This document shows, one piece after another, positions 13,836 to 17,521 of a DNA stretch of 46,737 bases. A model generated the notes under the pieces. The model saw only the letters and a program-made list of their open reading frames with translations. It was not told the DNA's origin and did no database searches. The stretch covers positions 1 to 46,737 of IMG/VR virus record IMGVR_UViG_3300046458_000167; one strand, written 5' to 3'. A program made the position numbers and the translations under genes. Position 1 is the first letter of the stretch. The number at the start of each line of letters is the position of its first letter. Source of the stretch: a virus.

Positions 13836-14402
13836 TCAAAGCGGGGTGTAGTCACCCGTCACGACATCCCGATAGATCGCAGTGGCGTAGAGCTTTTTGG
13901 AATCGCTGATCCTTTTTGCCACGGAAATCGCTTCCTGCTTGGAAGCGTAGGGGCCAGCTCCTACGTCCTTTCCAATCATCGGTACCACATCAAGATCCAT
14001 CTCCTCCATGCACTTGCGTGCACGATCACTTTCGGCATCGTCACGGCATGATACTCGCGCTACCCAGCCTTGCTTGAGCTTGGGCGCTGCCGCTGGCTCT
14101 ACGTCAGCCCCGCAATGCTTGCATTTAATCGCTGCCAGCTTGATGGGTTCGGCACAGAACGGGCAATCCCTGGTGTCAGCCGTGCTGACGGGCGCCGCTG
14201 GCTGGCGTCTACCACCAAAGATCAGCATGAGCAGGCCGGCGATGAAGGCAATACCACCGATAAGCGTCAGGTTTTGGCGTTCGGCCATCAAGCCTATATT
14301 GTTGACTCTGCCGATACCGGTGTTGACCGAAACGTCCATGGACATCGAGACGATCAGTAGAAGAACGGCAACGACCAATACCAAAATTCCAAATCCGCGC
14401 AC
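13836..14402 (-). CDS. Membrane protein with zinc ribbon, possible superinfection-exclusion factor
   Basis: Two hydrophobic helices (about residues 3-20, ILVLVVAVLLLIVSM, and 45-64, LIGGIAFIAGLLMLIF) are followed by a zinc ribbon (CPFCAEPIKLAAIKCKHCG) and a C-terminal domain with SPOR-like features (PYASKQEAISVAKRIS). The start GTG 14402 has GGAGGG seven bases upstream. ATG 14417 is possible but lacks a site. The gene stands alone between terminators, next to the immunity genes, and so is likely expressed in the lysogen. Membrane location and position suggest envelope protection against related phages. This is inferred. Confidence 0.7.
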   Translation of the reverse strand: MRGFGILVLVVAVLLLIVSMSMDVSVNTGIGRVNNIGLMAERQNLTLIGGIAFIAGLLMLIFGGRRQPAAPVSTADTRDCPFCAEPIKLAAIKCKHCGADVEPAAAPKLKQGWVARVSCRDDAESDRARKCMEEMDLDVVPMIGKDVGAGPYASKQEAISVAKRISDSKKLYATAIYRDVVTGDYTPL

Positions 14403-14462
14403 TGCACAACCCTCCATAGATGAGCCTGAATTCTATCATGCAGGCCCATGGCTACCGGGCGT

Positions 14463-14488
14463 AAAAAAGCCCGCGCATTGGCGGGCTG
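14463..14488 (-). terminator. Terminator, second of a tandem pair after the kinase cassette
   Basis: AGCCCGC/GCGGGCT stem with loop GCATTG, followed on the minus strand by six T. It lies downstream of the terminator at 14514-14540. Confidence 0.75.
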
Positions 14489-14513: not shown

Positions 14514-14540
14514 GAAAAGCCCGGCGCAGGGCCGGGCTTG
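14514..14540 (-). terminator. Terminator, first of a tandem pair after the kinase cassette
   Basis: AAGCCCGGC/GCCGGGCTT forms a 9-bp stem with a GCAGG loop, followed on the minus strand by TT and a short T-rich tail. It lies 11 bp past the end of gene 14551-15426. With the second terminator it isolates the cassette from the rest of the left region. Confidence 0.78.
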
Positions 14541-14550
14541 TGAACGACTA

Positions 14551-15426
14551 TTAGGCGACTCTCGGAGTCCACCATTCAATCGTTTTTAACGCCAACTCAT
14601 CTGTTGACGGCGCTTTAATCACTGACAAGCCTGAGCGCTCGACACGTTCAAGCTGTTTATCGATAACGTCAGATACGCGTTTGTACTCCAACTGATCCAT
14701 TCCGCTTTTATCATTCGGAACTAGAATCGACAACGCCCCGATCCGATCACTGTTGTTTGACACAAGCGTGAGGTCGGAGAATGCTTGAAGGATATTTTTC
14801 TCAGCAACCACCGGGCTTTTATACCAAACGGATACGACCGATCCGACTGCCGTTGCGCTAAGCAACGGAACATCCACGTCGATCGTGCCATTCTTCAGGT
14901 GCAGTCGGTAGCGCTCATCTTTGATGATCGCAGAAGCACTCAGAGCCATCCTTTGCCGCATGATCTGGAACAAACCATCGCGTAGCTTCGGAGTTGAAGT
15001 GTATCTAAATGCCTCGTTGCGCGATGGATCCTTAGGCCTTCCAAGCGTCACTACGTCAGAAAAAAACTCCTCAACGACAGCCTCAGGAGATTCACCTGAG
15101 GCATAAAGGCTCGGCCCGAGTCGAACATTACTGCTGATAATGTCCGGGAGACCGTCCTTGCTGGAGAAGATATATTCTTCAATATCATGAAGATAGTGCG
15201 TGAGGCTCTTCAGGTTAACCCGGCCGCCATATAGGCATTTGACTCGATCAAAGGTATCGAGCATACGGACATCAACCTTTCCGGCATGGGAAAACATGAC
15301 GCCCACGTTCAGATATTCGTCAGCATCCTGATCCAAGCACATCTGAATAGGTCGCCAATGACCAGCCACGCGCACGGGCACAGCTGCTGACGCAACCTTT
15401 TGCTTAAGCCTAGCGAGGATAGTCAT
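14551..15426 (-). CDS. DUF3037-like protein of the two-gene immunity-region cassette
   Basis: The product has 291 residues. Residues 21-90 (WRPIQMCLDQDADEYLNVGVMFS, split around D34 to V43) match the pattern of DUF3037, where a strand is followed by E-x-x-N-V-G-V and a further strand. In known genomes DUF3037 genes pair with HipA-like kinase genes, as here. The remaining 200 residues are mixed alpha/beta with no motif that I recognise. The ATG overlaps the kinase stop as ATGA. Base composition is visibly more AT-rich than the flanking phage genes. The role may be substrate or antitoxin-like partner of the kinase. Confidence 0.68.
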   Translation of the reverse strand: MTILARLKQKVASAAVPVRVAGHWRPIQMCLDQDADEYLNVGVMFSHAGKVDVRMLDTFDRVKCLYGGRVNLKSLTHYLHDIEEYIFSSKDGLPDIISSNVRLGPSLYASGESPEAVVEEFFSDVVTLGRPKDPSRNEAFRYTSTPKLRDGLFQIMRQRMALSASAIIKDERYRLHLKNGTIDVDVPLLSATAVGSVVSVWYKSPVVAEKNILQAFSDLTLVSNNSDRIGALSILVPNDKSGMDQLEYKRVSDVIDKQLERVERSGLSVIKAPSTDELALKTIEWWTPRVA

Positions 15427-16298
15427 ATCATCAGACCCACTTTAGCGCCGTATTGTCCAGGATCCAGTCGAGAGGCTAGGAATTCTAGCACCTGTTCGAC
15501 TTCTGGAGGATCCATGAATTCCGATAAAACAGAGCCGGCCTGGCTACGCCCAGTCGCCTGCCATGCTACTGAAAAAGACTTGTAGGCTAAATTCCGCGCT
15601 GACCGGATGGGACTCCGCGCGCTCCAAGAAGGAATGAAGCTTTCGATCAAGTCAACCAGAGCATTGCGCACCGGGAGGGGGCTTGACTCGAGCGCCTCCG
15701 GCGACCAGGTAGGCGTTCTGAATATTCGTCCATGATCTATCAGTACCAGATTAGCCGATGGAGAACCCAAGAGATTGCCCAAATGACGATCGCTGTTCTC
15801 AACCCATTCATCGAATGAGACTATCCTGGGTGAGGTCTTGTTTGAAGAGAGGTCAATAGCAATTCGTGCCCGGTTTCTTTGCTGCACCAAGTCGGGGGCA
15901 TCTGAAGGGCACTCGACCATAAGGGCGTCAAGCCGCATATCTTCAGAAAACCAAGCAAGATACTCATCCTGAGATTTTCCGGTGGCATCTTGATCTGCCA
16001 GTTTTGCAAGGACCGATTCAGGTAGCTGCTCAGCGGCCAGAACGATTGCCCCAGCTCGACTTGCAACCTCAAAACCGCAGGTCCGCGCAAGACAGTAGCC
16101 TAGCGCCTCACTGATGACTGATCGGTTTTCTGCACTGCTTCCATTTGGAAGGCCAATGAGAGTGGCAAATGGTTTGATGTAGCACCTTGCGGCGACATCA
16201 CCGACCTGTATTTTCCCCCGGAACAGTACACTTTCCCCGGCGGGGGCAGCATCTCGCAAGGTTCCTAGAAACGAATCACTTCCCAAAATTTGCAGCAT
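15423..16298 (-). CDS. HipA-like kinase of the two-gene immunity-region cassette
   Basis: The 291-residue product shows the catalytic layout of HipA-like kinases (HipA_2 type): a nucleotide-binding strand with CYIKPF (K42), the catalytic loop FDEWVENSDRHLGNLL (N168, D170, H172, N175) and the metal-binding LIDHGRIF (D188). HipA proteins phosphorylate translation factors such as glutamyl-tRNA synthetase; the target here is unknown. ATG 16298 follows AAAGGA. The gene lies 91 bp downstream of the repressor on the same strand, with a T8 run between, so it can be read from the repressor promoter. It is followed by a DUF3037-like partner and two terminators. Confidence 0.75.
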   Translation of the reverse strand: MLQILGSDSFLGTLRDAAPAGESVLFRGKIQVGDVAARCYIKPFATLIGLPNGSSAENRSVISEALGYCLARTCGFEVASRAGAIVLAAEQLPESVLAKLADQDATGKSQDEYLAWFSEDMRLDALMVECPSDAPDLVQQRNRARIAIDLSSNKTSPRIVSFDEWVENSDRHLGNLLGSPSANLVLIDHGRIFRTPTWSPEALESSPLPVRNALVDLIESFIPSWSARSPIRSARNLAYKSFSVAWQATGRSQAGSVLSEFMDPPEVEQVLEFLASRLDPGQYGAKVGLMI

Positions 16299-16389
16299 GA
16301 TCAATCCTTTGAAATTGATAAAAAAAAGCCACAGGGTAATCACCCCAGCGGGGACCTCGGCCACTTGGCGTCTACGACCTTGCCGTCGA

Positions 16390-17208
16390 TCACAAATCCC
16401 CACCACGCCAGATCACCTTGCCAATGATCCGGTGCTCATTCACATCACTGCGCGACAGAACGATGTCGCCAAACTCGTCCTTGTCCTGGTTATCACTGCG
16501 GATGATCCAGCTGCCAAGCGCGGTCTTCACCAGGCGCTTCACGATCGCGCCCTTATCCGTGCTGGACAGGACAAATACGTGCCCGTCGGCTGGCTCGATC
16601 TTCGACTTGTCCACTAGCAGCACGTCATGGTCATTGATCGTGGGCCACATGCTTTCGCCGTCGGCGTAGATAACCAGCAGGTTTTCAGCTTTTACGCCCT
16701 TTGCCTTTAGCCAGTCGCGCTTGAAGGCCAGAGTAGTGTTGGACTCGACGTGTGGGTTCTCGGAGCCCAGACCTGCCGCAGCCTTCGCTGTGAGCTGCGG
16801 GATGTGCGCGTATTTCTCGTCGATCGCCTCCGAATCCCAGCCAGCAGGGAAGGGCGACTGCGGAGCATTTGCCAAGGATGAACCATCTGGCGCAGAGGTG
16901 GAGCCCAGAATGGGTGATCTGAAAATTCCAGAGGCGAGCGAAGGACTTACTTCGGCAGGCTCGAAATCAAGGACCTTGGCCAGCTTGACCAAGGCATCAA
17001 GGTTCAGCGCCGCATGGCCATTCAGGTACTGGCTCACCATGCTCTGCGGCGACTTCCACTCACACCGCTCGCCGACTTCTGTCTGGTTGAGGGGTGGTGT
17101 ATCCCCGCGAGCCTTGGATTCCTTCACCCGGCGCTGATAAATCTCGCGCAGCCGAGCGGCATCCTCAAGCTGGACTTCGGATAACGGAGTACGGGTAGGT
17201 TTTTTCAT
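16390..17208 (-). CDS. Prophage repressor with S24/LexA-type self-cleavage domain
   Basis: The 272-residue repressor maintains lysogeny. The N-terminal HTH (about residues 40-80: LNQTEVGERCEWKSPQSMVSQYL) recognises operators. The C-terminal S24 peptidase has a scissile Ala145-Gly146 (TAKAAAGLGS), the nucleophile Ser186 (YADGESMWPTI) and the general base Lys224 (GAIVKRL), so RecA-stimulated self-cleavage and SOS induction are expected. ATG 17208 has no ribosome binding site, and a promoter (TTTGAT, 16 bp, TACTTA) ends about 10 bases before it, so the message is probably leaderless, as for lambda cI from PRM. The in-frame extension to 17244 lies in the operators. Confidence 0.93.
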   Translation of the reverse strand: MKKPTRTPLSEVQLEDAARLREIYQRRVKESKARGDTPPLNQTEVGERCEWKSPQSMVSQYLNGHAALNLDALVKLAKVLDFEPAEVSPSLASGIFRSPILGSTSAPDGSSLANAPQSPFPAGWDSEAIDEKYAHIPQLTAKAAAGLGSENPHVESNTTLAFKRDWLKAKGVKAENLLVIYADGESMWPTINDHDVLLVDKSKIEPADGHVFVLSSTDKGAIVKRLVKTALGSWIIRSDNQDKDEFGDIVLSRSDVNEHRIIGKVIWRGGDL

Positions 17209-17320: not shown

Positions 17321-17521
17321 ATGATGAAGACCGTATCCCTAGGGGAATACCTGTCATCGCACGGAACCCAGAGCGATCTCGCCAAGGCTCTGGGTATCCA
17401 GCAAAGCGCCGTATCCCAAATGCATCGTTCCAGCCGGACTATCACGATCACGCTGATGGATGACGGCTCGATCCTGGCAAATGAGATCCGGCCAATCCCG
17501 GCACGCAAGACCGCCGCCTAA
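17321..17521 (+). CDS. Cro-like repressor
   Basis: The 66-residue product is of lambda Cro size. It has a helix-turn-helix at residues 8-32 (GEYLSSHGTQSDLAKALGIQ and QSAVSQMHR) and ends with beta strands (ITITLMDDGSILANEIRPIPA), matching Cro proteins from Pseudomonas and enteric phages. ATG 17321 follows GGAG at a six-base gap. It is the first gene of the rightward operon and diverges from the repressor across three operators. It should bind the same operators and limit repressor synthesis in lytic growth. Its stop overlaps the convergent gene 17518-17724 by four bases. Confidence 0.9.
   Translation: MMKTVSLGEYLSSHGTQSDLAKALGIQQSAVSQMHRSSRTITITLMDDGSILANEIRPIPARKTAA

Follow-up and report, generated by a model that had tools for sequence, protein, structure and literature searches.

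A far-diverged HipAD-type gene pair, probably a phage defence cargo, in the rexAB position of a Pseudomonas-type temperate phage

What is the role of the two genes that directly follow the cI-type repressor in a Pseudomonas-type temperate phage, at the place where lambda carries rexAB? We addressed this question in the genome IMGVR_UViG_3300046458_000167, an IMG/VR virus record of 46,737 nt (the whole of this stretch is referred to as the window). An initial annotation of the pair (14551-16298) had proposed an undescribed defence or toxin system composed of a HipA-like kinase and a DUF3037-like protein, sitting just downstream of a self-cleaving repressor.

The layout given by the initial annotation was exact. 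The gene for the HipA-like kinase, the predicted toxin, extends on the minus strand from an ATG at 16298 to a stop at 15423, and the gene for the DUF3037-like partner, the predicted antitoxin or sensor, extends on the same strand from an ATG at 15426 to a stop at 14551. Both encode proteins of 291 aa, and the stop and start codons share four bases (ATGA, 15423-15426, minus strand), an overlap that is kept in relatives and would couple their translation. An in-frame GTG at 16406 could also serve as the start of the kinase, but the starts of the relatives align with the ATG at 16298, and a probable ribosome-binding site (AAAGGA, 16307-16312, minus strand) was read upstream of this ATG. The repressor gene lies 91 bases before the kinase, on the same strand (16390-17208, counted from an internal ATG), and its product carries the HTH_3 (E 8.6e-6) and self-cleaving Peptidase_S24 (E 3.1e-14) domains. 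Divergent from it, a Cro-like repressor gene (17321-17521, plus strand; Pfam Cro, E 1.7e-12) marks the immunity region and places the pair in the rexAB position.

Two intrinsic terminators close the pair on the minus strand (14518-14533, fold z -3.8; 14468-14487, fold z -2.4). Between the repressor and the kinase, the hairpin before a run of eight T (16332-16347, minus strand) folds no better than shuffled sequences (z -0.03), and read-through is expected there. We found no sigma-70-like promoter in this stretch. The poor hairpin and this negative search are consistent with read-through from the repressor promoter, although they do not prove it, and the pair is probably transcribed with cI in the lysogen, as the initial annotation had expected. 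Furthermore, the G+C content of the pair is 51.4%, compared to 58.6% for the window, and just 0.3% of windows of equal length are as low. This AT-richness makes a recent acquisition probable. Downstream of the pair, 13836-14417 (minus strand) encodes a protein with a zinc-ribbon-like stretch (UPF0547, sub-threshold), and a similar protein is found behind other cargo in locus L064.

To assign the kinase, we compared it with domain and phage protein profiles. It matched Pfam HipA_2 with E 1.2e-5 (25.1 bits, under the cut-off of 27) and the PHROGs family of unknown function phrog_11186 with E 1e-16. Profile-profile alignment by hhalign of 17 window-type kinases with the kinases adjoining PDC-M66B genes gave a probability of 96.5% (E 8.6e-10), and adding HipA of Escherichia phage PhiR5_1 gave 96.7% (E 3.6e-10). 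All the kinases compared, PhiR5_1 HipA among them, share eight invariant residues (K42, E64, D163, N168, D170, R171, N175, and D188). The motif residues listed in the initial annotation (K42, N168, S169-D170-R171-H172, D188) are all present, and five of them (K42, N168, D170, R171, D188) belong to this invariant set, while H172 is variable. D188 had been listed there among the catalytic motifs; by analogy with E. coli HipA, we presume that D170 is the likelier catalytic base and that D188 is the metal-binding Asp.

A kinase from a small enterobacterial plasmid (L116) bridges the two lineages: BLASTP matched it with the window kinase at E 2e-13 and with PhiR5_1 HipA at E 1e-8, and this bridging kinase type reaches Pfam HipA_2 above the cut-off (E 4.2e-9). 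By these sequence comparisons, the window kinase is shown to be related to HipA of HipAD, and it is a HipA_2-type kinase with intact catalytic residues, as in HipAD and PDC-M66. Its identity to the experimentally tested systems is 26% over part of its length.

The partner is more diverged. It matched Pfam DUF3037 with E 0.026 (15.2 bits, under the cut-off of 22.6), its relative in L005 did so with E 9.5e-4, also under the cut-off, and its best PHROGs family, phrog_14695 (E 6.5e-24), is again of unknown function. The profile search that the initial annotation had suggested thus returned both expected families, each below its Pfam threshold. With hhalign, the N-terminal domain of the partner aligned with HipD/DUF3037 around the GEFxNVGV strand (probability 78%, E 1.8e-5), and the strand motif read earlier from the sequence is present as E37-x-x-N40-V-G-V. 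The DUF3037 and PDC-M66B matches of the window and its relatives fall in this same N-terminal region. When the full-length partner profile was aligned with HipD/PDC-M66B, the DUF3037 region stayed unaligned and just a short C-terminal stretch aligned. We found no convincing pairwise match between the partner and the tested systems. In the PADLOC library, the only matches of the window proteins were weak ones to PDC-M66A (E 0.021) and PDC-M66B (E 0.05); the same two models were matched again by two relatives with better E-values.

Structure did not help the assignment, since the kinase model was poor and no partner fold match was convincing. AlphaFold2 modelled the kinase, from 17 homologues, with a mean pLDDT of 59 and under 50 in the catalytic half, and the partner with a pLDDT of 76. 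No significant match came from searching the sequences of solved structures. Two fold candidates for the partner, Can2-like and XPF/ERCC1-like (probability about 0.8), were dropped, as neither gave a PDB match with E <= 0.001.

The claim that the pair was undescribed did not hold. A HipA-like kinase with DUF3037 was published as DS-6, renamed HipAD, which protects E. coli against phage and loses defence when the kinase is mutated (PMC13092281). According to that paper, the same laboratory had already discovered HipAD in earlier work on prophage defence in E. coli (Brenes & Laub 2025, cited in PMC13092281). The same two domains form part of the Retron-Sda1 operon, where they defend against Bas51 on their own; deletion of the kinase abolishes this defence, and deletion of DUF3037 is toxic (PMC12548924). 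PADLOC lists the combination as phage defence candidate PDC-M66. The initial annotation had also known of no described role in a prophage, but the lambda-like Escherichia phage PhiR5_1 (PV340545) is annotated with the order cro, cI, HipA toxin, HipD antitoxin, kil, gam, bet, which puts HipA and HipD in the rexAB position.

The window pair resembles HipAD in its kinase-then-partner order, its ATGA overlap (identical in PhiR5_1 hipAD), its kinase motifs, and its position downstream of cI in a temperate phage. It differs in that its partner is recognisable by profile at the N-terminus only, both proteins are sub-threshold in Pfam, and both are longer (291 and 291 aa versus 249 and 275 aa). PDC-M66 and the Retron-Sda1 pair combine a HipA-like kinase with a DUF3037 protein in the gene order of the window, but no retron was found adjoining the window pair, which is flanked by the repressor upstream and by the zinc-ribbon protein on its downstream side. 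Two-gene exclusion systems downstream of cI, with expected co-expression in the lysogen, are also known from lambda (rexAB) and P. putida (RexABpp, PMC12894663). However, RexAB consists of a DNA-binding sensor and a membrane effector, and we rejected membership in RexAB, since the families found are HipA_2- and DUF3037-like and not RexA or RexB. HipBA and HipBST also pair a HipA-superfamily Ser/Thr kinase effector with an inhibitory partner. The window has no HipB or HipS, and its presumed antitoxin is DUF3037-like and encoded downstream; membership in HipBST/HipBA was rejected because the kinase is preceded by a phage repressor of the S24 type and no HipS-like gene lies beside it. Both the role and the rexAB position have precedents, and the window pair is a far-diverged variant of the HipAD type.

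To see how the pair is distributed, we scanned viral contigs, species genomes, phages, and plasmids, and found about 30 related loci. The kinase precedes the DUF gene wherever both are present, and a 4-base overlap nearly always joins them. All window-type relatives with both genes have this overlap, which is ATGA nearly everywhere, GTGA in L015, and TTGA in L016. An operon with the kinase first and the partner overlapping it is the arrangement of HipAD and PDC-M66. The gene order shared by these relatives, together with the profile comparisons and the conserved motifs, backs the HipA-like and DUF3037-like identities. In Acinetobacter baumannii, L115 (3348-5867) carries an S24 repressor, kinase, and DUF in that order, with kinase and DUF adjacent and without overlap; the record is labelled a plasmid but has 3.66 Mb and is probably a chromosome.

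This conservation bears on whether the pair could be decayed or neutral passenger cargo. The pair is rare, occurring in 2 of 399 Pseudomonas genomes, one of which was the centre of the search, and its AT-rich, probably recent origin would fit a passenger. Against this, both frames are intact, the catalytic residues are invariant even in relatives with about 40% identity and in more distant ones, and gene order and overlap are kept. We consider passenger status very improbable.

Some relatives travel on very small plasmids. L114 and L116 are plasmids of 3.5-3.9 kb from Klebsiella and E. coli in which the kinase and its partner, 28% identical to the partner of the window, are nearly the sole cargo. 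Salmonella and Raoultella also have small plasmids of this kind. Such a cargo, the toxin-antitoxin anatomy, and the toxicity of DUF3037 deletion in a relative (PMC12548924) would suit an addiction or stability module that mainly punishes prophage loss by post-segregational killing and does not act on infection. But the toxin-first coupled order and the rexAB slot match tested defence pairs, and defence has been measured for both the Sda1 and the DS-6 pair (PMC12548924, PMC13092281). We therefore regard a main role in prophage stability as improbable.

The slot itself is a cargo hotspot. We compared 33 loci whose repressor is related to the window's cI, and the genes just downstream vary: they encode DUF3800-like proteins in L064, L065, L069, and L093, an AAA_15/AAA_21 ATPase in L066, a Schlafen AlbA_2 protein in L075, a P63C protein in L077, and others, and these varied genes are candidate exclusion or defence genes. 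L004/L085 hold a window-type pair in the slot. In L084 (5351-6921), where the repressor is again related to the window's cI, the slot is occupied by a canonical HipA_2 (E 3.4e-65) and DUF3037 (E 4.3e-22) pair that matches PDC-M66A and PDC-M66B. Two diverged HipA-DUF3037 lineages thus use the same slot in one phage family, which argues for the same job there.

Taken together, this evidence makes it probable that the pair is a diverged toxin-first toxin-antitoxin system of the HipAD/DS-6/PDC-M66 type that serves phage defence as cargo of the rexAB slot. The defence or toxin role first proposed for it is supported as probable, by analogy with relatives, and the same analogy predicts that the kinase is toxic and is neutralised by the partner. 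Transcribed with cI in the lysogen, the pair would yield a DUF3037-like protein, translated by ATGA coupling, that keeps the HipA-like kinase in an inactive state. When another phage infects, the kinase-partner complex may be disturbed, and the freed kinase would phosphorylate a cellular target, so that growth stops and spread of the intruder is blocked, as in abortive infection. The classical target of HipA is an aminoacyl-tRNA synthetase. Counting against this explanation, identity to the experimentally tested systems is very low, and our literature search found no experiment on the window-type kinase-DUF lineage.

We also examined the gene before the kinase. In most relatives it encodes a short repressor (158-215 aa, one over-long start call aside) that overlaps or abuts the kinase start. 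The N-terminal HTH of these repressors is of several different types, and the last 75-85 residues form a common module with the pattern SPRS...GRL...LLDQIA...R/K-L-R-x-K/R-L (L001, L010/L024, L011, L013, L015-L023, L025, L027-L030, L035, L047, L049-L052). The S24 domain was absent in all 11 module repressors scanned. Most module repressors lie opposite a Cro- or YdaS-like small gene and thus apparently hold the immunity-repressor position; one is annotated as cI in BK061589. An HTH repressor with a C-terminal module before the kinase recalls HipB, as a resemblance only.

The module is tightly linked to the pair. When we scanned with the module alone, using a pattern that leaves out the tail, kinase and DUF lay directly downstream in 11/11 loci, and among 50,697 phage records the module occurred only in the one record with the pair. 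Sixteen of 18 module-type virus records lack any S24 protein, while all S24-type records, the window included, have an S24 protein upstream of the pair. The module was searched for in the window and none was found. On the kinase and DUF tree, the two repressor types need two changes. In L012 (5046-5123) and L026, an S24 repressor precedes a piece of DNA left over from the repressor tail, with its frame broken (CCTAGGAAAAGCTGCAGAAATATGATTCACAT), which indicates a repressor swap.

The tail (R/K-L-R-x-K/R-L) contains an invariant AGG codon, which is probably a ribosome-binding site at the DNA level. We rejected the reading of the tail ('RLRE') as a ribosome-binding site only, since the R/K and L codons on either side show synonymous variation, which suggests a constraint on the protein as well. 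Judged from its sequence, the module may either bind the kinase or partner or be a dimerisation domain that was passed on with the rest of the block.

A rival reading is a lysogeny-control module, in which the repressor of the phage itself is the object of the kinase and the DUF3037-like protein; they would sense the host state or infection and tune induction, with defence secondary. The S24-less repressors in immunity position, whose module is found only at kinase-DUF loci, and the scan results above point this way. However, the repressor of the window and of its nearest relatives is of the ordinary S24 type and lacks the module, and in L012 an S24 repressor has taken the place of a module repressor; both observations argue that the pair does not need the module. 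Furthermore, the linkage could have arisen because an overlapping block is inherited as a unit, and relatives elsewhere defend without a repressor (PMC12548924). We consider lysogeny control as the main role unlikely.

For the main branch of relatives, we propose tentatively, as a rather unlikely reading, that the S24-less HTH repressor, the kinase, and the DUF3037 protein form a tripartite complex in which the repressor doubles as antitoxin or kinase substrate and so would link lysogeny and prophage induction with defence against superinfection. In the window, the system has its two-gene form and follows a repressor of the ordinary S24 type. The repressor-kinase-DUF arrangement is the most novel lead of this analysis and offers a testable link between a phage master repressor and a kinase toxin.

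As a probable defence system, the pair would extend HipAD-type defence to a far-diverged lineage found in Pseudomonas, Azotobacter, Acinetobacter, and small enterobacterial plasmids, which current Pfam and PADLOC models barely reach, and one phage family uses the same rexAB slot for two HipA-DUF3037 lineages. If the tripartite reading is true, temperate phages would have a new means of tying the lysogenic switch to growth arrest of the host.
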